Positions 4,927 to 27,258 of a stretch of DNA of 33,185 nt are shown here, one piece after another. The stretch is from a virus. Where the stretch lies: IMG/VR virus record IMGVR_UViG_3300032006_000040, positions 1 through 33,185 of that record; one strand, written 5' to 3'. Both the position numbers and the translations under genes were made by a program. The notes beneath the pieces are model-generated. The model ran no database searches. It was not told the origin of the DNA and saw only the letters and a program-made list of their open reading frames with translations. Within the stretch, counting starts at the first letter, position 1, and every line of letters begins with the position of its first letter.

Positions 4927-5706
4927 TTACTCGTCATCTATCATGCAGCCGCAGCCACCCCAGTCGAACAGATCTAGCTGACCAGTATCTTCCGCTTCGA
5001 TCTTTCCCCTGAATTGTTTGAGCGTTATCGGTTTGCTTTCCCCACCCGATCTATCTCTAAGAATAGCGACGTTAGCTCCTAGTTCTTGCCGCATTTCTTC
5101 TTCCTTCTGCTCCCAATCAGCGAATGTATCTGGTATCGCTTTCAACGCCCACTTGAAATGGCCGTGTCCTGCCCGTACACACAGCCCTCCACAATTATTA
5201 TGTGGTGCGCCGAGATCATAAAGCCTTGGTTGCTTTATCCCATAACGTGCGAGCAGCATATCTGCATCTTCTTTGTCACTTAATGGTTCCCATAATAAAG
5301 GAAAGTCAACTTGATATGGGGTCCAGTGTTTGGGGATTCTTTCTGTCCTATGAATCTCTGTCCAGTCAATACCAAAATGTATTGTTGTTTCTTCAGGCGA
5401 TTCACAATGAGCGTCTAACCATCGTCTACTTATTTCTTGCTTCAGTATCCTTGAACATAAAGGAACTCTGTTATTCCCAAGAAACCTAGAGTCTTTAAAG
5501 ACTTGCCAAATGTCTCGGCCATCTGCGATATGTTCCAACGGTAGATCTAAAGCGTCGCTTGCTTCATAAAGGAATCTGTACAGATCTTCGTCTTCAGTTT
5601 TAGTATCAGTAAATAACAGCAGCACATCGTCGTATCGTTCTTTAGCTAAAGCAGCAGCAAGAAAGGATGCCTTACCACCTGAGAACATGACTACATGCTT
5701 CTGCAT
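4927..5706 (-). CDS. PAPS reductase-family PP-loop protein (adenine nucleotide alpha hydrolase-like)
   Basis: 259 residues. The N-terminus carries the PP-loop MFSGGKASFLAA (S9, G10, G11, S14), followed by LLLFTDTKTEDEDLY, as in PAPS reductase / ATP sulfurylase-type enzymes that bind an adenylated nucleotide. Further cysteines occur at C84 (VPLCSR), C172 and C176 (NNCGGLC), and C252 and C254 (GGCGCM) near the C-terminus; these could hold a metal or a redox thiol. Phage homologues are widespread. Proposed roles range from sulfur assimilation to base or backbone modification (DndC-like), and none is established by sequence alone. No Shine-Dalgarno is obvious before the ATG at 5706. Instead a perfect 12-bp inverted repeat lies 19 bases upstream. 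The gene sits near the end of the early unit. Confidence 0.75.
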   Translation of the reverse strand: MQKHVVMFSGGKASFLAAALAKERYDDVLLLFTDTKTEDEDLYRFLYEASDALDLPLEHIADGRDIWQVFKDSRFLGNNRVPLCSRILKQEISRRWLDAHCESPEETTIHFGIDWTEIHRTERIPKHWTPYQVDFPLLWEPLSDKEDADMLLARYGIKQPRLYDLGAPHNNCGGLCVRAGHGHFKWALKAIPDTFADWEQKEEEMRQELGANVAILRDRSGGESKPITLKQFRGKIEAEDTGQLDLFDWGGCGCMIDDE

Positions 5707-14928: not shown

Positions 14929-15204
14929 ATGACAATAGAAGACATAGCAGAGCGTTCTGATGTCTGGCGAGACTCCATAGAACACATTCTGAAAAACGTC
15001 AAAGCTATTGCTGGGGCGGTTGTCGCAGCCATCATTGGTGTCTGGGCGTTCTGGCCCAGTGGAGATCCAGAACCCACAGCCCCAATCACAGATGAAGCAT
15101 GTGTAGCTTTACTCGGATCATTGAATGATGAAAGTGTGCGAAACTGGTCAGAAGAACAGTGGGGCGTCTTCGAGGCGTCGCAACGAGCATTGGAATGTGA
15201 CTAA
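14929..15204 (+). CDS. small single-pass membrane protein (holin-like candidate)
   Basis: 91 residues. A short charged N-terminus (MTIEDIAERSDVWRDSIEHI) leads to one membrane helix at about residues 25-43 (KAIAGAVVAAIIGVWAFWP), then a soluble acidic tail of about 45 residues with two cysteines. A Gly/Ala/Val-rich single helix with a short N-terminus fits some holins, and the next gene also has a membrane helix, so this pair could serve lysis. However, the lysozyme-like gene lies far away on the other strand. The stop overlaps the next ATG (TAATG). The function is inference. Confidence 0.55.
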   Translation: MTIEDIAERSDVWRDSIEHILKNVKAIAGAVVAAIIGVWAFWPSGDPEPTAPITDEACVALLGSLNDESVRNWSEEQWGVFEASQRALECD

Positions 15205-15647
15205 TGGCTGAAGATATAGAAAACGACTTTAAACAAATCAAAGTCAGCCGCCTAACTCTCGGACTTATCATGTCCGTAGCAGTCACCTCAGGCGTAATTG
15301 TGTGGAACGCCGCCCAAGTAGCAGGCCGAATAGGCGAACTCGAAGACACAGTGAACCGAGTAGAACAAGACATGGGTGAGTTGCAAATCGAAACCGACCC
15401 CACAATCCTCCTCAGACTCGACTCATTAGAAGAAAAAATCGACGAGCTTGCCGATACTGACCACAATGCGGAACTCACGTCCCGAGTCGTGGAACTTGAA
15501 GAATGGATTGAGGAACTCGACCGAGACAACGGTGAAGAATTTAAGTGGGAAATAGACGATCTTCACCATAGGACATATGTATTGGAAGAAGCAATCCGTA
15601 GTAGATCTTGGGGGGAAAATTTTCTTCGGGAACATTTTGGGTGGTAG
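15204..15647 (+). CDS. membrane-anchored coiled-coil protein
   Basis: 147 residues. After a short N-terminus comes one membrane helix (about residues 17-36, LTLGLIMSVAVTSGVIVW), then a long acidic coiled coil to about residue 125 with heptads such as IGELEDTVNRVEQDMGEL, LDSLEEKIDEL and VVELEEWIEELD. The end is WGENFLREHFGW. This is the layout of phage spanin-like or membrane-anchored accessory proteins. In a Gram-positive host a spanin would not be needed, so a holin regulator or anchor is an alternative. Coupled to the previous gene by TAATG. Confidence 0.55.
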   Translation: MAEDIENDFKQIKVSRLTLGLIMSVAVTSGVIVWNAAQVAGRIGELEDTVNRVEQDMGELQIETDPTILLRLDSLEEKIDELADTDHNAELTSRVVELEEWIEELDRDNGEEFKWEIDDLHHRTYVLEEAIRSRSWGENFLREHFGW

Positions 15648-15650
15648 CTG

Positions 15651-15734
15651 ATGACAAAATGCCCAAATTGTAATTGTGAGTCATGCCCCTGTAGCTGCAA
15701 TCATTGTGATTGTTGTGGACATATGGATGGCTGA
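15651..15734 (+). CDS. 27-residue cysteine-rich mini-protein
   Basis: An ATG at 15651, three bases after the previous stop, opens a frame of 27 codons whose TGA overlaps the ferredoxin ATG (TGATG). The product has nine cysteines (residues 4, 7, 9, 12, 14, 16, 19, 21, 22) and two histidines, with CPNCNCESCPCSC at its start. This density is metallothionein-like. The block CNCESCP....C.C matches a block of the larger Cys-rich protein at 15976 (CACEHCP....C.C), so the two may be related. A role in binding zinc, copper or iron, or in donating metal to the neighbouring ferredoxin, is inferred. The frame is short, but coding is supported by coupling on the 3' side and by the shared motif. Confidence 0.6.
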   Translation: MTKCPNCNCESCPCSCNHCDCCGHMDG

Positions 15735-15976
15735 TGAAAGTTTGGATCGACCAAGATCTCTGCACCGGTGACGGGTTATGTGCAGAAATATGTCCTGAAG
15801 TTTTTATTATGCGAGATGACGGACTCGCCTATGTCCAAGAAAACGGGCATGTGTTCGACGATCCGGGTGGGGCGCTTGGGTTAGCAAACTTTAAGGAAAG
15901 TGAATTAGAAGCAGTTATCGAATCGGCAGAGGAATGTCCGGGGGAATGTATTTACATTGAAGTAAGTTCTGGGTAA
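15734..15976 (+). CDS. single-cluster ferredoxin (actinobacterial type, Asp at the second ligand position)
   Basis: 80 residues from the ATG at 15734. The signature CTGDGLCAEICPEVF has C10, D13, C16 and C20-Pro, and the last half CP motif is EECPGEC (C68-Pro, C72). In the usual C-x2-C-x2-C-x3-C-P pattern the second position is Asp, as in Pyrococcus furiosus ferredoxin, so a 4Fe-4S cluster with an Asp ligand, or a 3Fe-4S cluster, is expected. Such ferredoxins pass one electron, for example to cytochrome P450s or other reductases in actinobacteria. The gene overlaps a Cys-rich mini-protein gene on one side and a Cys-rich protein gene on the other (TAATG), inside the late unit before the terminase. 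A phage ferredoxin is uncommon; its partner is unknown. The PAPS-reductase-like protein is one candidate but lies in the early unit. Confidence 0.85.
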   Translation: MKVWIDQDLCTGDGLCAEICPEVFIMRDDGLAYVQENGHVFDDPGGALGLANFKESELEAVIESAEECPGECIYIEVSSG

Positions 15977-16254
15977 TGGTTATTTATGGGTGTTTATGTG
16001 AAGAAGAAGAATGTATATGCCACTTCTATCACTATGACTGCGCCTGTGAGCATTGCCCAGACTGCGCTGACGAATGTTTTTGTTTCGAATATGCAGAATG
16101 GATAGAAGAACCTATGGAACCAACCACACTTGCCGAAATTTTTGAACAGAACCCCGACCTTTTAGGGGAACGAGGGCCAGTCGATCCTTTTGAAGACGAT
16201 GAGCTTTTAGAATGCGGTTTAGAAAATCCTGAGATTTGCGATACCTGCCAATAA
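15976..16254 (+). CDS. cysteine-rich acidic protein
   Basis: 92 residues, coupled to the ferredoxin by TAATG. Ten cysteines crowd the first 36 residues (6, 8, 13, 15, 22, 24, 27, 30, 34, 36) with three histidines; three more lie near the C-terminus (80, 88, 91). The rest is acidic with PTTLAEIFEQNP and EDDELLECG. This looks like a metal-binding protein, possibly with zinc or Fe-S sites, with a short acidic linker between two metal-binding parts. Part of its N-terminal block resembles the mini-protein at 15651. No named family is recognised. The terminase gene starts nine bases downstream. Confidence 0.65.
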   Translation: MVIYGCLCEEEECICHFYHYDCACEHCPDCADECFCFEYAEWIEEPMEPTTLAEIFEQNPDLLGERGPVDPFEDDELLECGLENPEICDTCQ

Positions 16255-16263
16255 GGGGCCCAT

Positions 16264-18186
16264 ATGCCATCTGGAAAAGCGACCACTGTTGAGAAATGGA
16301 CTGATTATTTAGCGTTTCGGCGGCAAGGTCAATCAATCTTCCACGCTGCTAAAGAATGCGGCCTTTCCTACCATGCGTGCAAAGATGCAGAAAATGGGCG
16401 TGCGCCTAAAAACTATTTAACTGCAGAAGCCGCAGTAGGCAAAATGACCCAGCCGGAGGTCCCAGAATATGATGAGCTTTCTCCCGAGGCGCAGGCTGCA
16501 TACGATAATATCGAAGTCTTTGCCAAAAGGTATTTCGGCATTATTTTACAACCGTGGCAGATTGAAGCAACCGAACGGATCATGGATCTCCTCGACACAG
16601 AATACGAGGAATACGCCGTAATCAACGCCCCACCCGGTACAGGCAAATCCACATTCTTCGCAAAAGTATTGCCTGCATGGGCAACAGTCCGCAACCGAGC
16701 CATACGTGGAATGATCGGATCCTCTACCCAACGGCTAGCTGAATGGTATGCACGGCGACTACGTGCAGAATTTGATAGAGGTATCCCAGTTAAAGCTGAA
16801 CTTAATGATGTGAGACTCAACTTAGCTGTAGATGCTGAAGCAACTTTGCAAGAAGACTTTGGTATGTTCCGTCCAGACTCGACAGAGATATGGCGAGCCG
16901 AAGCTTTCACAGTGTTACAGAAAGATGACACCCCACTTTCGCAGAAAGAACCTACGTGGTCTGCCTTCGGAATGGACTCCGGTTTCCTCGGGGGCCGTTT
17001 CGATCTAGTTATATGGGACGACGTATACGATCCACGCAAAATGCGTTCTTCTGAATCCCGCGAAGATATGCGAAGATGGTGGGATGAAGTGGCTGAAACA
17101 AGGCTCGAACCCGGCGGACTACTTGTACTACAAGGACAGCGAATGTCCGCTGACGATATTTACCGATACGCACTTGATAAAGTGGCCCCACCAGACGACT
17201 ATGAACTCGAAGAATTCGACCCAGAAGACGCACCAGATGACTGGAGGAAATACACTCATCTTAAATATCAAGCGCATTACGAAGAAAATTGTCAAGGCGA
17301 CCACAAACCTGACGCCGCATCTTGGCCCGAAGGGTGCCTACTTTACCCTCGGCGGCTCCCGTGGCGACGACTCCGCCACATCAAAGCTCAAACCCCAGAC
17401 CGGTTTGAAGTCCTTTACCAACAGTCAGATGTAAACCCGTCAAATGTTCTTGTCGATCCTTTATGGGTAAGCGGAGGCGTAGGCAAAGACGGGGTGCATT
17501 ACCCCGGATGCTGGGACGACGACCGGGATTTATGGGAACTCCCCAATGTCCACACAGACGATCTTTTCGTAGTAGCAACCGCAGACCCCTCGCCAGCTAA
17601 TTTCTGGGCAATACAATGCTGGGCCTATAATCCTTTTACAGAGTTCCGGTATCTCCTAGAATCGTATCGCCGGAAAATGGACGCACCAGCGTTCCTTGAT
17701 TGGAGCCACGAACGCCAAGCATTTTCAGGAGTTGCTGAAGATTGGTGGCAAATAAGTTCAGATATGGGGGCTCCAATAACTCATTGGATTATTGAAGCAA
17801 ATGCCGCACAAAAATTTATTCTCCAATACGATCACTTCAGGCGTTGGGCAGCGCTACGCAACGTCCAGCTTGTGCCGCATTATACGCACTCTAAAAATAA
17901 GGGCGACCCCAAGTACGGGGTGCAAATGCTTGCTCCGTTATGGCGCGTTGGCAGAGTGCGTTTGCCCGGTAAAAGAGACACAGAAGCAAGACCACATTCG
18001 CTTTTACTGATAAACGAAGTTACCAGATGGAACGCCGAAGGTACTGGTTCACGCACAGACGACTGTGTTATGGCAGAATGGTTCCTAGAACATAACCTAG
18101 ATAAGATTTATGTTCCGTATGATATGCAAACTCGCCAATGGCGACCCTCGTGGCTGTCGGCTGAATCTGAAATTGTGATGAGGTAA
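16264..18186 (+). CDS. terL: terminase large subunit
   Basis: 640 residues with AAGGGG before the ATG. An N-terminal helix-turn-helix (about 24-45, SIFHAAKECGLSYHACKDA) may bind DNA or the small subunit. The ATPase has Walker A PPGTGKST (123-130), an adenine-side QPWQIE (96-101) and Walker B FDLVIWDD (246-253), followed by LLVLQGQRM (about 286-294) as coupling motif. The nuclease has D441 in TADPS, E511 in WIIEAN and D599/D600 in TDDCVM, the three acidic positions of the RNase H-like domain. It translocates DNA into the prohead and cuts concatemers. No separate small-subunit gene is obvious nearby. The gene is directly followed by the portal gene (two bases apart), and preceded by the cysteine-rich cassette. 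Confidence 0.9.
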   Translation: MPSGKATTVEKWTDYLAFRRQGQSIFHAAKECGLSYHACKDAENGRAPKNYLTAEAAVGKMTQPEVPEYDELSPEAQAAYDNIEVFAKRYFGIILQPWQIEATERIMDLLDTEYEEYAVINAPPGTGKSTFFAKVLPAWATVRNRAIRGMIGSSTQRLAEWYARRLRAEFDRGIPVKAELNDVRLNLAVDAEATLQEDFGMFRPDSTEIWRAEAFTVLQKDDTPLSQKEPTWSAFGMDSGFLGGRFDLVIWDDVYDPRKMRSSESREDMRRWWDEVAETRLEPGGLLVLQGQRMSADDIYRYALDKVAPPDDYELEEFDPEDAPDDWRKYTHLKYQAHYEENCQGDHKPDAASWPEGCLLYPRRLPWRRLRHIKAQTPDRFEVLYQQSDVNPSNVLVDPLWVSGGVGKDGVHYPGCWDDDRDLWELPNVHTDDLFVVATADPSPANFWAIQCWAYNPFTEFRYLLESYRRKMDAPAFLDWSHERQAFSGVAEDWWQISSDMGAPITHWIIEANAAQKFILQYDHFRRWAALRNVQLVPHYTHSKNKGDPKYGVQMLAPLWRVGRVRLPGKRDTEARPHSLLLINEVTRWNAEGTGSRTDDCVMAEWFLEHNLDKIYVPYDMQTRQWRPSWLSAESEIVMR

Positions 18187-19955: not shown

Positions 19956-20353
19956 TGCCACGTAAGGGAATGGGACAAAAAATACAGACAGCTAAAGGTC
20001 AAGAGTACGGGCAAGCAACTCAACAAGAAGAAGCGCAACGTGTAGCGCCACTTCCAGAGCTTGCTCCTCCACCACGGCCACAGCGTCGTGAACCTGTTCG
20101 CCAAGCAACTCCTCCGGGGGCAGCAGGCGATCCTTTCCGAAGTAGCGAACGACCCAACGAACCCGTTACCATGCCGGTAACCCAGACAGCAGAATCGCAG
20201 ATACAGTTAAGTCCAGAACGGGCACAATCTATTCCTCCTGTGCTGCACATGCTGTACTCAATGGCGAATAGCGCTTATGCAGACCCAGCTTTGCAAGACT
20301 TTGTTCGGAGAATGGAAAACTTCACCCCAACTAAATACGATCCTCCGCGATGA
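19955..20353 (+). CDS. unknown Pro/Gln-rich protein after the portal gene
   Basis: 132 residues, ATG overlapping the portal stop. The first 80 residues are low complexity (KIQTAKGQEYGQATQQEEAQ, PLPELAPPPRPQRREP), probably disordered. The last 50 are more ordered (AQSIPPVLHMLYSMANSAYADPALQDFVRRMENF). Such small proteins between portal and next head gene can be scaffold-like or assembly factors. Its TGA overlaps the ATG of the giant gene by four bases. No family recognised. Confidence 0.6.
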   Translation: MPRKGMGQKIQTAKGQEYGQATQQEEAQRVAPLPELAPPPRPQRREPVRQATPPGAAGDPFRSSERPNEPVTMPVTQTAESQIQLSPERAQSIPPVLHMLYSMANSAYADPALQDFVRRMENFTPTKYDPPR

Positions 20354-23300
20354 GCGTTCTCGGTAGAGTCTTCAAAATCGTGCGAGCCCCCGTAGATTTA
20401 GGGGCGCAGCTAGGAGATTTCGTAATCGACGGGATTACTCATCTGCCTGAAGCTAGAGATGAAAGCGGTTTTGTTTACGCTCCCATACGTTCGTACTTTG
20501 AATCGTTTAAAGACAACATCGTCGGACAAGCGAGTATGACAGGCGAAGGGGACAAGAGCGTACTCAAAAGCGTTTTCGGGCCAGAAGGAATGCTCGGGGC
20601 AACTGTCGGGGGGCTACCTGAAGAAGGTTTAATTGGGATGCCTCGGAGAAAGTTCGGAGATCTTTTCTGGGATCCGTCACTTTCGTTTCTCCAATTCGCA
20701 TACAAGAACGGTGTCGATAGACCCATAGGCAGTATTGCGACATTGTGGAGTTTGGCTGATGCAGATGCAGAGTTTGACGACACTGAACCGTTTTCTTTTA
20801 ACCCTTTTGAAATAGGCGATACGTTTACTGGAATAGCGAGGAGAGCTAATAGAACTATCCCCGGTATGTCCTTTAGTGATTTAGTAACAGACCCAGAAAA
20901 AGCAATTAAAAACAATCAGTTCTTTAATTTAGATACTTACTCAGATGTTTGGGAAATAACTAATTCTCGTAGCGCAGGTCAAGCAATTATGCTTGCACAA
21001 CAACGAGTCAACATCCTTGACCCTCGCGAATTGCAACAGGCTAAAGGCACGTTGTGGTATCAGATGGGGTCTGGGCTAATAGATTTTTCTTTAAACATTG
21101 TCGGAGATCCTGCCTTCCTTGTAGTTAAAGGTGTGCGTGGCGCACGCGCGATGAAACGCATGGGCACACAATTCGATGCAACAGGCAATGTTGTCTTCGG
21201 TCCGAAAGACAACCTTTCCCCGTTCGTTTATCCTCAGCGGCCCCCGAAAAAACGTAACTCAATTTTGTATAACGCCACAGATGGACGCATCGGTAGGGGC
21301 AAAGGTTCAGTCGCCGAATACGACGAAGTGTTCTCTATCGACAAAGACCGGAATATTCATTATCAGAAAGATCCGTCACGATATGACCCGATGTATGGCA
21401 AGACCCCAGAGTTTGCCACAATAGACGATGCGATTATTAGCCCTGAAATGGATGTGTTTAAGCAACGCATTCAAACGCTGGTCGTTGGAGAAGTAGGGTA
21501 TCGAAGCAAAGACGCTCATCTTAAAAGACGAACATCTAGTCCTCATGGCGCAGCGGCAGATAAAAAGCGTCCATATAAGGGGTATCTAATTGATGAAGCT
21601 CTCGAAGCATCGGACGAAGTTATCGAGAAAGCTGCTTATGCCGAAGAAGTTGCTGTTTTAGTAGACGATATAGACACAGAGCTAATGAAGCTCGCTCCTG
21701 ATGGGAATATCACTAAGGGCCGGTTCGATCTTGCAAAAGCCGAACAAGAAGCTTTTCAGGCAATGCTTGAAAAGCCTTCGGCTCGCACCCGTGAAGCGTG
21801 GGAAAAAGCTGAAGGGCTGCTAGACGAATGGGATGATCTTATATCCCAGAAACGAATGCACCAGAAAGATGCATTAGCAAACCTCGGAGAAGTAGAAACC
21901 TACAAGTCGCCAAAGACTGAAGGTTTACAAGCCACTGAACAAGCTGCACGCAAAATACAACGGGATATGCAGGCTGGGCGATTTGGTGGCGAGTTTAAAA
22001 TGATGGACCCCACCGATCAGTGGGGTTTAGCAAAAGTTTTAGCAGATCTCGTTCCGGGTAATGCGCCTATTGGTACAAGCGCTTGGATTCCTTTCGACAA
22101 CTTTTTGAAACTTCGTTTAAATGGCAAAAACGCTATTGAAGCATTCGAAGCACAAGCACCGATACTCGCCAAACTTTTGTTTGGGGACAATGGTTTAGCA
22201 ATAAATCAAATTACTAATATTGCGGAAGTTCAAAATGCGTTACTAGAAGCACGAGACATTCTAAGCAAGGTACCTGAAGATTCTGCTCGACGGCAGCCGC
22301 TTAGAGTCATTATCGACGGATTAGAACAACAAGAAAAAATGCTTTACAATGCTGCCCAGAACCGTATTGCAACTGTTCTTGAAGATGTAAAACAAGTTAT
22401 TGATAGCGCCGACGATCAAGCACAAGCGCTATGGGAAATCCCTGCCCGTGGAACTCCAGAGTTCACGCAGGTGATGAACGAAGTCGCTGCTATGGACAAA
22501 ATTCCGTGGCTTGAAATTCTTAACGCAAACGATAACTTTGTAAAAACTCTTGTCGAAGAAGCCTCACCTGTTGGGTTCGCCAACAGAATGCCAGTAGACA
22601 AACTAGACGCAAGCCAAGCAGCAGTCCGAGGTATCAGCGAACTAGCTGTTAACGAAATCGCTCGGACAAGCAACCTTCCTATTCTTCCTAATAACCAGTT
22701 GCCATTCTTGGGGCCAATGAACCGAGCCGGTTTCCAAGCACGCACATTCTTCGAGAAAACATTTGACGGGGTTAAATACCCTAAAGCTTCACGTGCTTAT
22801 CGAGCTATCACTGAAATGACTACGCAATCAATCATTTCATTTTCCCAAGCCGGAGCAGCGTATCGTCAGTTCGATCGAATGCTAAGAGACGCAGACCGTG
22901 TTGTAGACGAGAACGGTGTTTCGATGGTTACCCGAGCCGGGTTAAACAGAGAACAACTTCTTATCGAGTTTCTAAATAACACTGCAGACCAGATCTTTAT
23001 GAAAGACCATTTCGAAAAGACTGTCGGAACTTTGATGGATCAGCTAGTCGATATGGTTGCGAATACCGAGTTCAATCCTCGGGGTCTTACTTTCGATAAA
23101 CAAGAACTTGTGTCGATCCTCAGAGGTGACTTAGATCACGCTAAACGGCAGATAGATGAAGCTGCAGACGCAGAAGAAATACGGCGTTCAAAAGCCTATG
23201 GCAACGTAGATTACCAATACACCTCAATTAATTTTGCGCGTGATGGTGAAAGCCTCCGGCTTCATGTTCCTTTGAGCCCTAGCCAGTTACGGGAATCACT

Positions 23301-26300
23301 AATAGTTCCTCGATTCGACATGTTCCAACGTGTCGTTAAAGAAATCAAAGGCGACTTTAAAGAAGTTTACGATGCACAAGGCAACATCAAGGAAGTCCAT
23401 ATAGGCAAAAGCAGAGCAGTTGCACGACACACCGCTCTTGTAGCAAACACCATGTGGAAACGAAGCGTACTACTTACACCCCGTTGGCAAATGGTGGTGA
23501 ACATAGACTCTCTCCTCCGTAGTTTTGCCCATGTAGGCGCTACCGCTGTGCTAGGTCAGATCGGTCCACAGATGGACACGCTGAAATCTCGGTGGCTTCG
23601 AGGTCGAGGCGTAGACGTTACGAAAGTAGTTGAAGATGAACTGTTTGGGTTTCTCGATAGCTACTACGAAGGCGTCATAGACAACCCGTGGGAATTCCAA
23701 GACCCGAAATACCGCACGGTAGACCCCGACGACCGTATCTTTGTTAACCCAATGACCGAGCCGCAACGAACACTTGCCCAAGCGATACGTGTATACGAAC
23801 AAATGTATGACAACGGCGCTGTTTCTCGGTCGCTAAACAAAGTCTTTGAAGACGCTATAGATACTGCTTACGCTTCAAAAAGCTACAAACGCCGTGTCTC
23901 AGTAATGACCGCCGCAGGGTTGTACTTCGCTGGCCCTGTCGGAGCAGCCGCAGCCGCAGCCCTATACACCCCCTACCATCGATCAAGTGTCGCTAAACTC
24001 GCACGGCACGAAATAGCGCAGACTTACGGCAACCAGCTACGGTTTGACGCACACCATTTGCTAGAAGATGTCGCTTACCAAGAACGAAACTTGTTAACAA
24101 TAGAAGATTCGTTTGATGTTGACGGTCGGCCTTTAACCAGAGATGAGCAACTCGACTTGCTTAAAGAAAGTCTTGGAGAAGATTTCTTCCTCGAAGCTCA
24201 ATACTGGGATGCTCTTGTAAAAGGAGATGCAGTTGAATACAGCGACTGGCGGAGAGCTTACGACGAAGGGGAGATAAGTCTCGAAGAAGCCCAAATGCTT
24301 GACCTTGCTGAACAGCTTGTAGCCAAAGAAGATCTTTCTGAAACATTCCGAGTTATGCGGCAAAACAGGCGAGAAGCAGCAAAACTTCTTGAAGCCCGAG
24401 CCGAGAACCTCGACACATTCCAGCGTCAGATAGTTGATGACTTTATCGCCGAATACCCAGAGATCGCTGGCCGATTCGAACGAGCAGGCGATCTGTTAGC
24501 TGAGTCAGGATATCCTCACGTTCAAGTAGGAAACGTAGTATTCGATCCAGCATACGGCGACATCCCAGCGGTACAGGCAGTATGGGAAAAAGCTAATTCA
24601 GCGAATGCTACCAATAGGACGCTGTGGGCAACGGAAGTAGATAACCAGCGTAAATCCCAGTTATATCAAGGAGCGCATCAATATGACATTCTTACAGATG
24701 CAGGCTCCGCTCCAATCGGCAGTCAACCACGTCAATCATTTGTTAATGCGTGGGATGATTACATGGATCGTCATGCTGGATCTCTTGGTCCTTCGGGGGT
24801 AGCAGCCAACAGAGATTTCTACCGCCAATATTGGCTGGGCAAAACCGACGATGAAATAGTTCAATGGTTGCAAAGTGGTGAAGGCCGCAAAATAGATTTG
24901 CCTGATGAATGGCGCAATCCCGAAACCATTTATGAGATGGTTGGGCGGACTCGCTGGGAAGCAGGGTCACTCGTACCAGATCTACCTATATTCAAATCGG
25001 TTCGTGAACGTCTTGCCCAAGGCGACACCATTACGTGGGAACGAGACATCCAACCACTCCTTGATGAAGCGCAACGTGAGATAGTTTCCGCTTACGAAAC
25101 TGTTGTGCGAACTGGCATAGATGTACATGGCGAAGGGGCCACTAACCGTCAGGTCTATCTTGAAAGTGTTTTCTTCCGAAATAACCCTCACCGTGAAGCT
25201 GCACTAACAGTCTTCAACGATCTTGTGAACAAGCAACCAGTATCCCGAAGTCTTGTAGAACGAAACCAGCAAGCAGCCCGAGAACTTTCCGAAATGCCTA
25301 CTGTTCTCCTGTACCGCAAATACGGTGAACTAGTAGAACCTTGGGCTAACAACGAGTTCTATGGTCTTACAGACTTTGGCAAAACCGTTAACGATTCTAG
25401 TTTCTTAGACGCACGCCAAACAATGTGGCTTCGCAAAGAAGCTAAAGGCCTAGTCAGAGATTTCTTTGAAAAGCGATTCGAAAACCTGACAATGGTCGAA
25501 GACGTTGTTTCACGTGGAACACTTTACAAATCGGTTTACGAACGCCAAGTTGCGATGGAGCTACAGCCCTACCGTATCGAAGGCGGCAAATACCGGGTTG
25601 ACGAAAAAGATGTTAAAAATATTCAGAACCGGGCAAGACGCACAGCGTTGCATGAAACAAAAGTTATTCTTTATGACCTTGCAGAAAAGTCAAGGTTCCA
25701 AGAACTGACAACACTATTAATGCCGTTCCTTGGCGCATGGCAAGAAGTCGCTACCCGTTGGGTAGGTATAGCAGCACAAAACCCTGTCTTCGTTGCCCGG
25801 ACTTTACGTCCGTGGCATGTCCTCACTTCTAAAGACGAGAACAATCAGACACGGCTAGTGTTCCAACTCCCCGGCGTATTCGCTACTGACACTCCGGGGC
25901 CATTGAGTCGTATACCGGGCTTCGACAAACTCTTTGGCGATTTCTCAGCTTTAGCAGAACAAAAAGTAGACTTAAACCTTGGCTCTGCTTCAATGATAGG
26001 TGGCTTACCCGGAGGCGGTCCTATCGTTTGTTTCGGTGCTGCACAACTACAGATCGTTGCACCAGAACTTATGCAATGGATTCCTAATGCGTGCCTCCCT
26101 TATGGCCCAGCCGAAGGCGACAACGTAGCGACGCAGTTCATAGACGCATTCACTCCTTCATGGACGCAAGCTTTCTTTAACGCTAAAGGAATGGACACCG
26201 ATCAGCGTGCCCGAACCGCAGCTACAGTCTTGCAAAGCTACTTAACGGAACTCTCCGAGCAAGGCATCGTTGTTGGCAGAGGCGGCCAGATAACAGAAGA

Positions 26301-27258
26301 CGAAGTTGCTGACGAAGTAGAACGCCGAGTCCAACATATCTTTGGAATGTTTATGGCACGCTCACTAGCGTTCCCTGTTTCTTTCCAACAACAATCTCCT
26401 TACTGGGCCACACTCTCTGATTTCTGGAAACGACAAGACGAATATGGAAGCCAAGAAGCAGTCGATTGGCTGCTAGAGAACCACCCAGATATGTGGGCTT
26501 TCACAGCGCGACGCACAAATATTAAATCGGTGGTTGCAGGAACCCTTGAAGGTCGAGCAGCGATCAAAGAACATCAAGAGTTTGCTGACAGAAACCCAGA
26601 GTTGGGTCGTTGGGTGACAGGTGAGATTGGCCCACTAGATGTACAGTTCGCATACAACGAAGCAGTCGCTCGACTTGAAAAGATCGAAGGCAAACGAGAG
26701 TATCTCGACAGCAAAGGACTTTTGAAGGAAGCTCAAACATCAATCGGGTGGCGAGAGTTCCGAGTATTCCGCAACTCTCGTGATTCTATACTGCGTGAAA
26801 GAGCAGAAGCTGGTGGATCAGTTAGCCTTTTGGCACGAGCAAACTACGATTTGTTTACATCCACACAGGATTTTGTTGCTCAACTTGCAGAAACTAATCC
26901 GCTTTGGTTCGAGGAATACAACGCAGGCGGTGATCCAGAAAGACAACGACGAATACTGCGTGGGTTCCGTGACGCTGTAGCCGATCCTGCGTTTGAGAAA
27001 CGGCCTGATATCGTGCCTATTTCTCAATATTTAGAACTGCACGACCAGATAGCGCAAGCGATGGTTGAACGTGCTGAGGTAAACCAGAACCGTAATTTCT
27101 TGCAATTAAGTTATAGAGGCAACGCTGATCTTCAACAGCAATGGGAAGTTGGGAAACTGCGTTTGCTGCGTCAGTCAGACTTTGGTTCTGTCTACGATTA
27201 TTTCTTTAGTAATATAGCGACAGTTTCAGTAGGAAACTTGCCGAGAACGAGAGTTTGA
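20350..27258 (+). CDS. 2302-residue giant virion-type protein (internal / ejection protein candidate)
   Basis: One uninterrupted frame of 2302 codons, about a fifth of the window, coupled to the previous gene by ATGA. The protein is mostly helical and charged; early parts include DFSLNIVGDPAFLVVKGVRG (about 235-265), then long coiled-coil stretches. A Gly/Ala-rich hydrophobic segment, near residues 1186-1208 (AAGLYFAGPVGAAAAAALY), is the only membrane-like stretch. Another conserved-looking block, LTTLLMPFLGAWQEVATRWVG (cited in part, about 1785-1805), and GGLPGGGPIVCFGAA (about 1882-1896) follow. I do not see RNA polymerase, protease or lysozyme motifs. Position between portal and scaffold/capsid genes suggests a capsid-internal protein ejected with DNA, or a giant portal-bound protein. 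This is inference. Confidence 0.7.
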   Translation: MSVLGRVFKIVRAPVDLGAQLGDFVIDGITHLPEARDESGFVYAPIRSYFESFKDNIVGQASMTGEGDKSVLKSVFGPEGMLGATVGGLPEEGLIGMPRRKFGDLFWDPSLSFLQFAYKNGVDRPIGSIATLWSLADADAEFDDTEPFSFNPFEIGDTFTGIARRANRTIPGMSFSDLVTDPEKAIKNNQFFNLDTYSDVWEITNSRSAGQAIMLAQQRVNILDPRELQQAKGTLWYQMGSGLIDFSLNIVGDPAFLVVKGVRGARAMKRMGTQFDATGNVVFGPKDNLSPFVYPQRPPKKRNSILYNATDGRIGRGKGSVAEYDEVFSIDKDRNIHYQKDPSRYDPMYGKTPEFATIDDAIISPEMDVFKQRIQTLVVGEVGYRSKDAHLKRRTSSPHGAAADKKRPYKGYLIDEALEASDEVIEKAAYAEEVAVLVDDIDTELMKLAPDGNITKGRFDLAKAEQEAFQAMLEKPSARTREAWEKAEGLLDEWDDLISQKRMHQKDALANLGEVETYKSPKTEGLQATEQAARKIQRDMQAGRFGGEFKMMDPTDQWGLAKVLADLVPGNAPIGTSAWIPFDNFLKLRLNGKNAIEAFEAQAPILAKLLFGDNGLAINQITNIAEVQNALLEARDILSKVPEDSARRQPLRVIIDGLEQQEKMLYNAAQNRIATVLEDVKQVIDSADDQAQALWEIPARGTPEFTQVMNEVAAMDKIPWLEILNANDNFVKTLVEEASPVGFANRMPVDKLDASQAAVRGISELAVNEIARTSNLPILPNNQLPFLGPMNRAGFQARTFFEKTFDGVKYPKASRAYRAITEMTTQSIISFSQAGAAYRQFDRMLRDADRVVDENGVSMVTRAGLNREQLLIEFLNNTADQIFMKDHFEKTVGTLMDQLVDMVANTEFNPRGLTFDKQELVSILRGDLDHAKRQIDEAADAEEIRRSKAYGNVDYQYTSINFARDGESLRLHVPLSPSQLRESLIVPRFDMFQRVVKEIKGDFKEVYDAQGNIKEVHIGKSRAVARHTALVANTMWKRSVLLTPRWQMVVNIDSLLRSFAHVGATAVLGQIGPQMDTLKSRWLRGRGVDVTKVVEDELFGFLDSYYEGVIDNPWEFQDPKYRTVDPDDRIFVNPMTEPQRTLAQAIRVYEQMYDNGAVSRSLNKVFEDAIDTAYASKSYKRRVSVMTAAGLYFAGPVGAAAAAALYTPYHRSSVAKLARHEIAQTYGNQLRFDAHHLLEDVAYQERNLLTIEDSFDVDGRPLTRDEQLDLLKESLGEDFFLEAQYWDALVKGDAVEYSDWRRAYDEGEISLEEAQMLDLAEQLVAKEDLSETFRVMRQNRREAAKLLEARAENLDTFQRQIVDDFIAEYPEIAGRFERAGDLLAESGYPHVQVGNVVFDPAYGDIPAVQAVWEKANSANATNRTLWATEVDNQRKSQLYQGAHQYDILTDAGSAPIGSQPRQSFVNAWDDYMDRHAGSLGPSGVAANRDFYRQYWLGKTDDEIVQWLQSGEGRKIDLPDEWRNPETIYEMVGRTRWEAGSLVPDLPIFKSVRERLAQGDTITWERDIQPLLDEAQREIVSAYETVVRTGIDVHGEGATNRQVYLESVFFRNNPHREAALTVFNDLVNKQPVSRSLVERNQQAARELSEMPTVLLYRKYGELVEPWANNEFYGLTDFGKTVNDSSFLDARQTMWLRKEAKGLVRDFFEKRFENLTMVEDVVSRGTLYKSVYERQVAMELQPYRIEGGKYRVDEKDVKNIQNRARRTALHETKVILYDLAEKSRFQELTTLLMPFLGAWQEVATRWVGIAAQNPVFVARTLRPWHVLTSKDENNQTRLVFQLPGVFATDTPGPLSRIPGFDKLFGDFSALAEQKVDLNLGSASMIGGLPGGGPIVCFGAAQLQIVAPELMQWIPNACLPYGPAEGDNVATQFIDAFTPSWTQAFFNAKGMDTDQRARTAATVLQSYLTELSEQGIVVGRGGQITEDEVADEVERRVQHIFGMFMARSLAFPVSFQQQSPYWATLSDFWKRQDEYGSQEAVDWLLENHPDMWAFTARRTNIKSVVAGTLEGRAAIKEHQEFADRNPELGRWVTGEIGPLDVQFAYNEAVARLEKIEGKREYLDSKGLLKEAQTSIGWREFRVFRNSRDSILRERAEAGGSVSLLARANYDLFTSTQDFVAQLAETNPLWFEEYNAGGDPERQRRILRGFRDAVADPAFEKRPDIVPISQYLELHDQIAQAMVERAEVNQNRNFLQLSYRGNADLQQQWEVGKLRLLRQSDFGSVYDYFFSNIATVSVGNLPRTRV

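Follow-up and report, generated by a model that had tools for sequence, protein, structure and literature searches.

Gene layout of the locus

The window, meaning the whole 33,185 bp viral record that was analysed, carries its late genes on the + strand. Among these is a run of three small genes, encoding a 27-residue peptide (mini27), a ferredoxin and a 92-residue protein (CR92), with two small proteins bearing apparent membrane segments on its 5' side and the large terminase subunit (TerL) on its 3' side (Table 1). The stop codon of mini27 and the start codon of the ferredoxin share TGATG, those of the ferredoxin and CR92 share TAATG, and 9 nt separate the end of CR92 from TerL. An earlier note on this DNA had described three overlapping cysteine-rich and ferredoxin frames ahead of a terminase, with nine cysteines in the 27-mer and 13 in the 92-mer, and this description was accurate; the frame opening at 15651, a lack of conservation of which it had named as counting against its reading, is conserved in 11 distinct DNA versions, and the other two frames are conserved as well.

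Table 1. Coordinates of the three-gene run, the modules of CR92 and the flanking genes
Feature	Position	Strand	Description
147-aa protein, lysis-like, apparent TM segment and coiled coil	15204..15647	+	Sequence; weak XhlA/hemolysin-type matches; synteny
mini27	15651..15734	+	27 aa, 9 Cys, 2 His; metallothionein-like composition; no Pfam/PHROG match
Ferredoxin	15734..15976	+	80 aa, single cluster; C10-x2-D13-x2-C16 ... C68-P; Fer4_15 E 2.4e-17
CR92	15976..16254	+	92 aa, 13 Cys; two modules: Cys-rich block, linker and RNR-type C-terminal tail
CR92 Cys block (aa 6-37)	15991..16086	+	11 Cys and 2 His invariant in 20-homologue alignment
CR92 RNR-type redox tail (aa 69-92)	16180..16251	+	DPFxDDxxxxC-x7-C[ED][ST]CQ-stop
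TerL (terminase large subunit)	16264..18186	+	phrog_38, E 1.3e-49

Elsewhere in the window, a PAPS-reductase-like gene (4927-5706, - strand; phrog_424, E 6e-43) may connect the cysteine-rich proteins with a supply of sulfur or cysteine. A 2302-aa ORF (20350-27258, +) has no Pfam match and probably encodes a large virion protein, and a 136-aa protein encoded amid structural genes (497-907, +) has an N-terminal zinc ribbon, its match to Zn_ribbon_8 (3.7e-7) lying just under the cut-off.

The ferredoxin

That the middle gene encodes a real ferredoxin, as first read, is upheld by Pfam matches above the cut-off to both Fer4_15 and Fer4_13 (63.8 and 45.2 bits). The nearest solved relatives are the P. 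furiosus (phmmer against the PDB, 4.8e-8) and T. maritima ferredoxins, and the best Foldseek match of the AlphaFold model (pLDDT 64) is the P. furiosus [Fe3S4] ferredoxin 1siz (7.8e-5), with further matches to 4id8/8amp and to proteins of [3Fe-4S] and [4Fe-4S] types, including P450-linked and M. tuberculosis ferredoxins. Among aligned relatives C10, D13, C16, C68 and C72 are invariant, the first four being the predicted cluster ligands, and position C20 is alanine in the hosts and most phages but cysteine in the window's group, which suggests that C20 is dispensable. Since C20 is so often replaced while the other five positions are fixed, the cluster is consistent, by analogy with the P. furiosus protein, with a [3Fe-4S] or Asp-ligated [4Fe-4S] type. 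The viral protein would on these grounds be an ordinary host-type [3Fe-4S]/[4Fe-4S] carrier. Its listed bacterial relatives are mostly from Acidimicrobiia or other Actinomycetota MAGs (64-79% identity), an 88% identical match is a phage contig within a TMED189 MAG, and the isolated phages in the collection searched gave no match. The parallel once drawn with cyanophage ferredoxins fails, as those are [2Fe-2S] proteins of the plant type, a family other than Fer4_15. The host homologue adjoins ORFs reading as a proteasomal ATPase and TrmI (L197, L204 near 4001).

CR92 combines a cysteine block with an RNR-type tail

CR92 is a protein of two modules, a feature overlooked in the earlier note. The 11 cysteines and two histidines of the N-terminal block are unchanged across 20 homologues, and pN/pS is 0.09 in the block and 0.16 in the tail (20 distinct sequences), values that are rough because pS is near saturation. 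This composition and conservation suggest that the block probably binds metal, as a multi-metal site, or stores thiols. Modelled by AlphaFold with metals left out, which makes the model uninformative, CR92 showed no fold (pLDDT 52) and no Foldseek match; it likewise had no match in Pfam, the Ribonuc_red_lgC catalytic domain included, or among the isolated phages of the collection searched. The CxCExCP...CxC block reported as common to mini27 and CR92 does occur in both, with P of 0.05-0.07 against composition shuffles and 0.24 when the order of the inter-cysteine gaps alone is shuffled. The duplication proposed from it was rejected, the likeness being within chance for two cysteine-rich peptides.

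Ribonucleotide reductase (RNR) makes the building blocks of DNA, and is a central control point of DNA synthesis. The main new result of this work is the likeness of CR92 to the tail of this enzyme: the last ~22 residues, DPFEDDELLECGLENPEICDTCQ-stop, match the redox-active C-terminus of the class I RNR alpha subunit, FTDEEAIACSLENPESCEACD/Q-stop. When CR92 was compared with 296 Acidimicrobiia genomes by tblastn, nine matches were found, one a phage contig and eight chromosomal, the latter being the C-termini of 849-930-aa ORFs aligned to CR92's own C-terminus. All eight are RNR alpha tails, seven reading as KTTYYLRSRPAT ... ACSLENPEVCEACQ and the eighth (G028) having been read separately. Similarly, all 14 chromosomal matches of a phage-tail profile (A2) in 296 Actinomycetota genomes were RNR C-termini (best E 4e-6), and so were three of its four weak matches among 177,635 PDB sequences, the three top ones being yeast Rnr1 residues 871-886 of 888 (a weak E of 0.87 each). 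A profile-profile comparison of phage and host tails gave a 98% probability, with a C-x7-CxxC and LENPE core in common.

Exact tails from 27 host and 69 phage proteins share C-x7-CxxC, [LVI][ED]NP[ED] and an acidic run; the cysteine columns of this alignment were set by the selection pattern, of which the HMM searches were free. Phage tails differ consistently from those of hosts in having E for Ala at -14, G or D for Ser at -12 and a terminal Q, with which all 69 end; C[ED][ST]CQ-stop closes 20/20 CR92 homologues and 80/80 of the best viral matches. The CxxC pair thus stands at the extreme C-terminus, and the sequence around it is RNR-specific (8/8 and 14/14 matches). We are highly confident that the CR92 tail is RNR-like.

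Stand-alone tail proteins in viruses

The tail profile, run against viral contigs, left 314 stretches past the tblastn filter. The best 80 of these are all small ORFs that end in the tail and adjoin TerL, structural or lysis-type genes, and there is no RNR among them. Many contigs of uncultured phages encode such stand-alone tail proteins, which are 33-57 aa long. In the window's phage group the tail protein directly precedes TerL and has the Cys block fused ahead of the tail; the block is present in 20 of 69 distinct viral tail proteins. Across 55 tail-only genes, pN/pS at non-cysteine codons is 0.35, with pS near-saturated. The RNR catalytic domain PF02867 was found neither in the window nor in the other tail-carrying viral records checked, and therefore the partner of the tail would be the host RNR. 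A weak RNR-like ORF did appear in one of 20 viral records, an 80-kb contig (L286) chosen for its mini27 and not for a tail protein.

Pfam and NCBIfam scans left the tail proteins unmatched, and the only match in isolated phages, to Burkholderia phage FLC9, had an E of 3 and ran antisense to an annotated gene. The 53-aa phrog_9555 does resemble the stand-alone tails over its last 25 positions (best E 0.0023), with its N-terminal half unmatched; members of phrog_9555 were absent from six named marine phages and from the 296 genomes. A limited search of the open-licence literature found no description of stand-alone RNR tails in phages.

mini27 and the ferredoxin as a separable insert

mini27 (MTKCPNCNCESCPCSCNHCDCCGHMDG) has a pN/pS of 0.08 over its 11 distinct DNA versions and of 0.15 when codons covered by the search pattern are set aside, again rough figures given near-saturated pS. 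It had no match in Pfam or PHROG or in the isolated phages searched, and its pattern was absent from 296 Acidimicrobiia genomes. Hence its sequence points to a conserved, phage-specific, metallothionein-like peptide, which may buffer metal or thiols.

The earlier note had treated the three genes as a unit, and suggested co-occurrence as a check. Relatives of CR92 were found in 32 viral loci, and an independent sample of marine relatives was drawn by TerL alone and then typed for neighbours. In this sample a Cys-block protein lay immediately or almost immediately 5' of TerL in 30 loci, and only a short tail protein did so in four. The ferredoxin and mini27 accompanied the Cys-block protein in just six of the 30; they were joint in all six loci with either, of which three are near-identical viruses, leaving ~4 independent cases. 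A second phage group (L009, L012, L015-L017) has a different TerL, and there ferredoxin and mini27 lie 3' of a separate 50-aa tail protein. The pair itself can also be parted: mini27 is fused to another small ORF in L003, with one gene between it and the ferredoxin; it is present in L278/L286 on a contig lacking ferredoxin; and in the L272 contig the two are >20 kb apart. Conversely, 67 of 80 ferredoxin loci had neither mini27 nor CR92 in the flank examined. As CR92 is mostly found without the ferredoxin, and mini27 also occurs without it, the three are separable elements in one gene run, in which ferredoxin and mini27 form an optional, separately inherited accessory insert.

These distributions bear on two readings of the run. 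Under the first, put forward in the earlier note as a metal or electron-transfer cassette, mini27 and CR92 would be metallochaperones for the ferredoxin, and the three genes one late unit. Overlapping starts and stops, cysteine-rich composition and the joint occurrence of mini27 and ferredoxin in 6/6 TerL-sampled loci (only ~4 distinct viruses) speak for it, yet CR92 mostly lacks a ferredoxin beside it, mini27 exists without one, and many phage ferredoxins lack both partners. Hence the redox and metal theme survives, together with the ferredoxin itself, but for the whole trio the cassette is largely refuted and we consider it improbable; cysteine-rich genes unlinked to ferredoxin, which the earlier note had named as what would count against it, are what was found (30 versus 6 loci; L286; L272). 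Under the second, mini27 would act in cis as a leader that senses cysteine and governs translation of the ferredoxin, resembling the polycysteine sORF attenuators of mycobacteria. Its frame is cysteine-dense, its stop overlaps the ferredoxin start in most loci and the host class is actinobacterial, but conservation extends to the residues between its cysteines (pN/pS 0.15 outside the pattern) and it is kept without a ferredoxin downstream in L272 and L278/L286, and with one gene intervening in L003, making this reading very improbable.

Two further kinds of small gene were seen at these positions. An ORF with KFKLSVCAGQGFKIRPIVRPY stands beside the mini27/ferredoxin insert in L004 (4739-4921), L016 (5244-5435), L008 (4795-4911) and L003 (4348-4554), being joined to mini27 in the last, and may mark a mobile segment. 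In L120, L122, L126, L128 and L144, lysine-rich proteins of 85-96 aa (weak DUF6321) lie 5' of the tail protein or TerL, filling the slot that the ferredoxin insert takes in the window.

Candidate hosts

Ferredoxin similarity and a GC content of 47-53% single out four Acidimicrobiia (NAT188, FRAM18, MED-G95 and ETNP14) as candidates, and these types are likely hosts on such sequence criteria. The class I NrdA of all four ends FTDEEAIACSLENPESCEACD, and next downstream comes an ORF of 362-363 aa, apparently NrdB in each of the three cases that were read. TMED189 was rejected as a host: the phage contig has 46-48% GC, against 29-35% in relatives or the other contig examined. The contig in question (L192 / G001 C16) is 37.6 kb long and binned in a TMED189 MAG, the relatives having ~35% GC and the other contig 29%; the binning is doubtful because of this mismatch. 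The TMED189 family has a class II RNR or a CxxxxC tail.

A possible trans-acting tail for host RNR

In class I RNR every catalytic turn leaves a disulfide, which the tail of the enzyme reduces. These tails are flexible, with a CxxC (PMC9669993); they reach into the active site of the next subunit, and glutaredoxin or thioredoxin reduces them in turn (PMC3618301, PMC9669993). As they work on a neighbouring subunit, and the C-terminal domain of a fungal RNR, taken by itself, binds Rnr1p in trans (PMC3618301), a tail supplied free by the phage could either regenerate or block host RNR; a separately encoded redox domain also exists, as NrdJb, in class II (PMC5704485). We propose that CR92 would be a phage-made, free-standing version of the host NrdA redox tail, preceded by a Cys block that would bind metal or store thiols. 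With host thioredoxin or NrdH as its reductant, it would dock on host NrdA and regenerate the active site in trans while phage DNA is made and packaged.

From the sequence likeness, action of the tail on RNR is probable, whereas activation by it has a slightly less than even chance. Re-reduction of host RNR by a trans-acting thiol tail is the best explanation we can offer, and is given nearly even odds. Several points count against it. Firstly, the similarity spans only ~22 residues, and could reflect convergence on a thioredoxin-recognised tail. The consistent departures of phage tails from host ones, at -14, -12 and the last residue, weigh on the same side. Secondly, a separately expressed Cys-rich domain failed to rescue a truncated class II RNR (PMC5704485). 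Thirdly, a late position at the packaging end is unexpected for a gene boosting dNTPs. Fourthly, the TMED189 family, with a related phage contig in its MAG, has a class II RNR or CxxxxC tail, if the doubtful binning is accepted.

The main rival to regeneration is a decoy, in which the tail protein would sit at the entrance of the NrdA active site, or trap NrdA as a mixed disulfide, halting host RNR late in infection. Being a near-copy of the host motif encoded among late genes would suit such an inhibitor, and there are precedents: the isolated RNR C-terminal domain of UN-24 in yeast produced a non-reducible Rnr1p complex and impaired growth, with its last residues needed (PMC3618301), and Sml1 competes for the R1 (Rnr1) catalytic site (cited in PMC6382339). 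The toxic fungal domain is, however, much longer, at 135 aa, phages usually need more dNTPs, and the two tail cysteines kept in every member would be needless in a pure competitor. Regeneration is favoured over blocking because these two and the third cysteine are all retained throughout the family, and the decoy appears unlikely. We think it just as unlikely that the CxxCQ tail is a generic dithiol recognised by thioredoxin or NrdH, serving other clients such as capsid or lysis proteins or keeping host thioredoxin reduced, with its RNR likeness arising from a common reductant. RNR tails do use the same reductant (PMC9669993, PMC3618301), and packaging and lysis genes adjoin the tail gene, but the likeness takes in LENPE, the third cysteine and the upstream acidic segment as well as CxxC, which is more than a thioredoxin substrate ought to require.

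On the favoured reading, the ferredoxin and mini27 would be an accessory pair on the same transcript, the ferredoxin providing one more copy of an Fe-S electron carrier of the host type. E. coli YfaE is a [2Fe-2S] ferredoxin that serves RNR, a parallel that is suggestive only, the link between ferredoxin and RNR at this locus being positional.

Significance and comparison with known systems

Complete RNRs encoded by phages are known. The wider picture, which we hold tentatively and at somewhat below even odds, is that phage microproteins which mimic only the RNR redox tail form a large and so far undescribed family, plugging phages of marine Acidimicrobiia and their relatives into host RNR and thereby controlling dNTP synthesis without an RNR of their own; one lineage would have joined the tail to a Cys/His metal cluster and coupled it with a viral ferredoxin. 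If true, the stand-alone tail represents a different and cheaper takeover of the enzyme, a natural protein of 40 residues allows a direct test of the trans action of an RNR tail, and the tiny late phage genes of this family, with 314 candidate stretches, gain a function.

Each part of the run has known counterparts. The viral ferredoxin shares the CxxDxxC...CP motif, fold and length class of the Fer4_15/Fer4_13 ferredoxins (P. furiosus, M. tuberculosis Fdx, R. palustris P450-linked), but is phage-encoded, and the window's group has C20 where hosts show Ala. mini27, with nine cysteines in 27 aa, has CxC/CxxC/CC spacing in common with metallothioneins (Metallothio_Pro PF02069 and short fungal types); neither it nor CR92 gives a Pfam match to the bacterial family, and the likeness of mini27 is one of sequence composition and spacing. 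NrdJb and the cysteine-rich domain of class II RNR likewise present an RNR redox domain as a separate protein, but one of 150-220 aa with six cysteines in a zinc-finger arrangement and a class II partner (PMC5704485), whereas CR92 has 92 aa, a different cysteine spacing and a class I type of tail, placing it outside that family, and no phage NrdJa was found. The closest counterpart is class I RNR alpha (NrdA/Rnr1), with which the phage tail has in common C-x7-C-x2-C at the extreme C-terminus, the LENPE core and the preceding acidic run; the phage proteins differ in lacking the catalytic barrel, in their length of 33-100 aa and invariable final Q, and, in the window's group, in bearing a Cys block instead.
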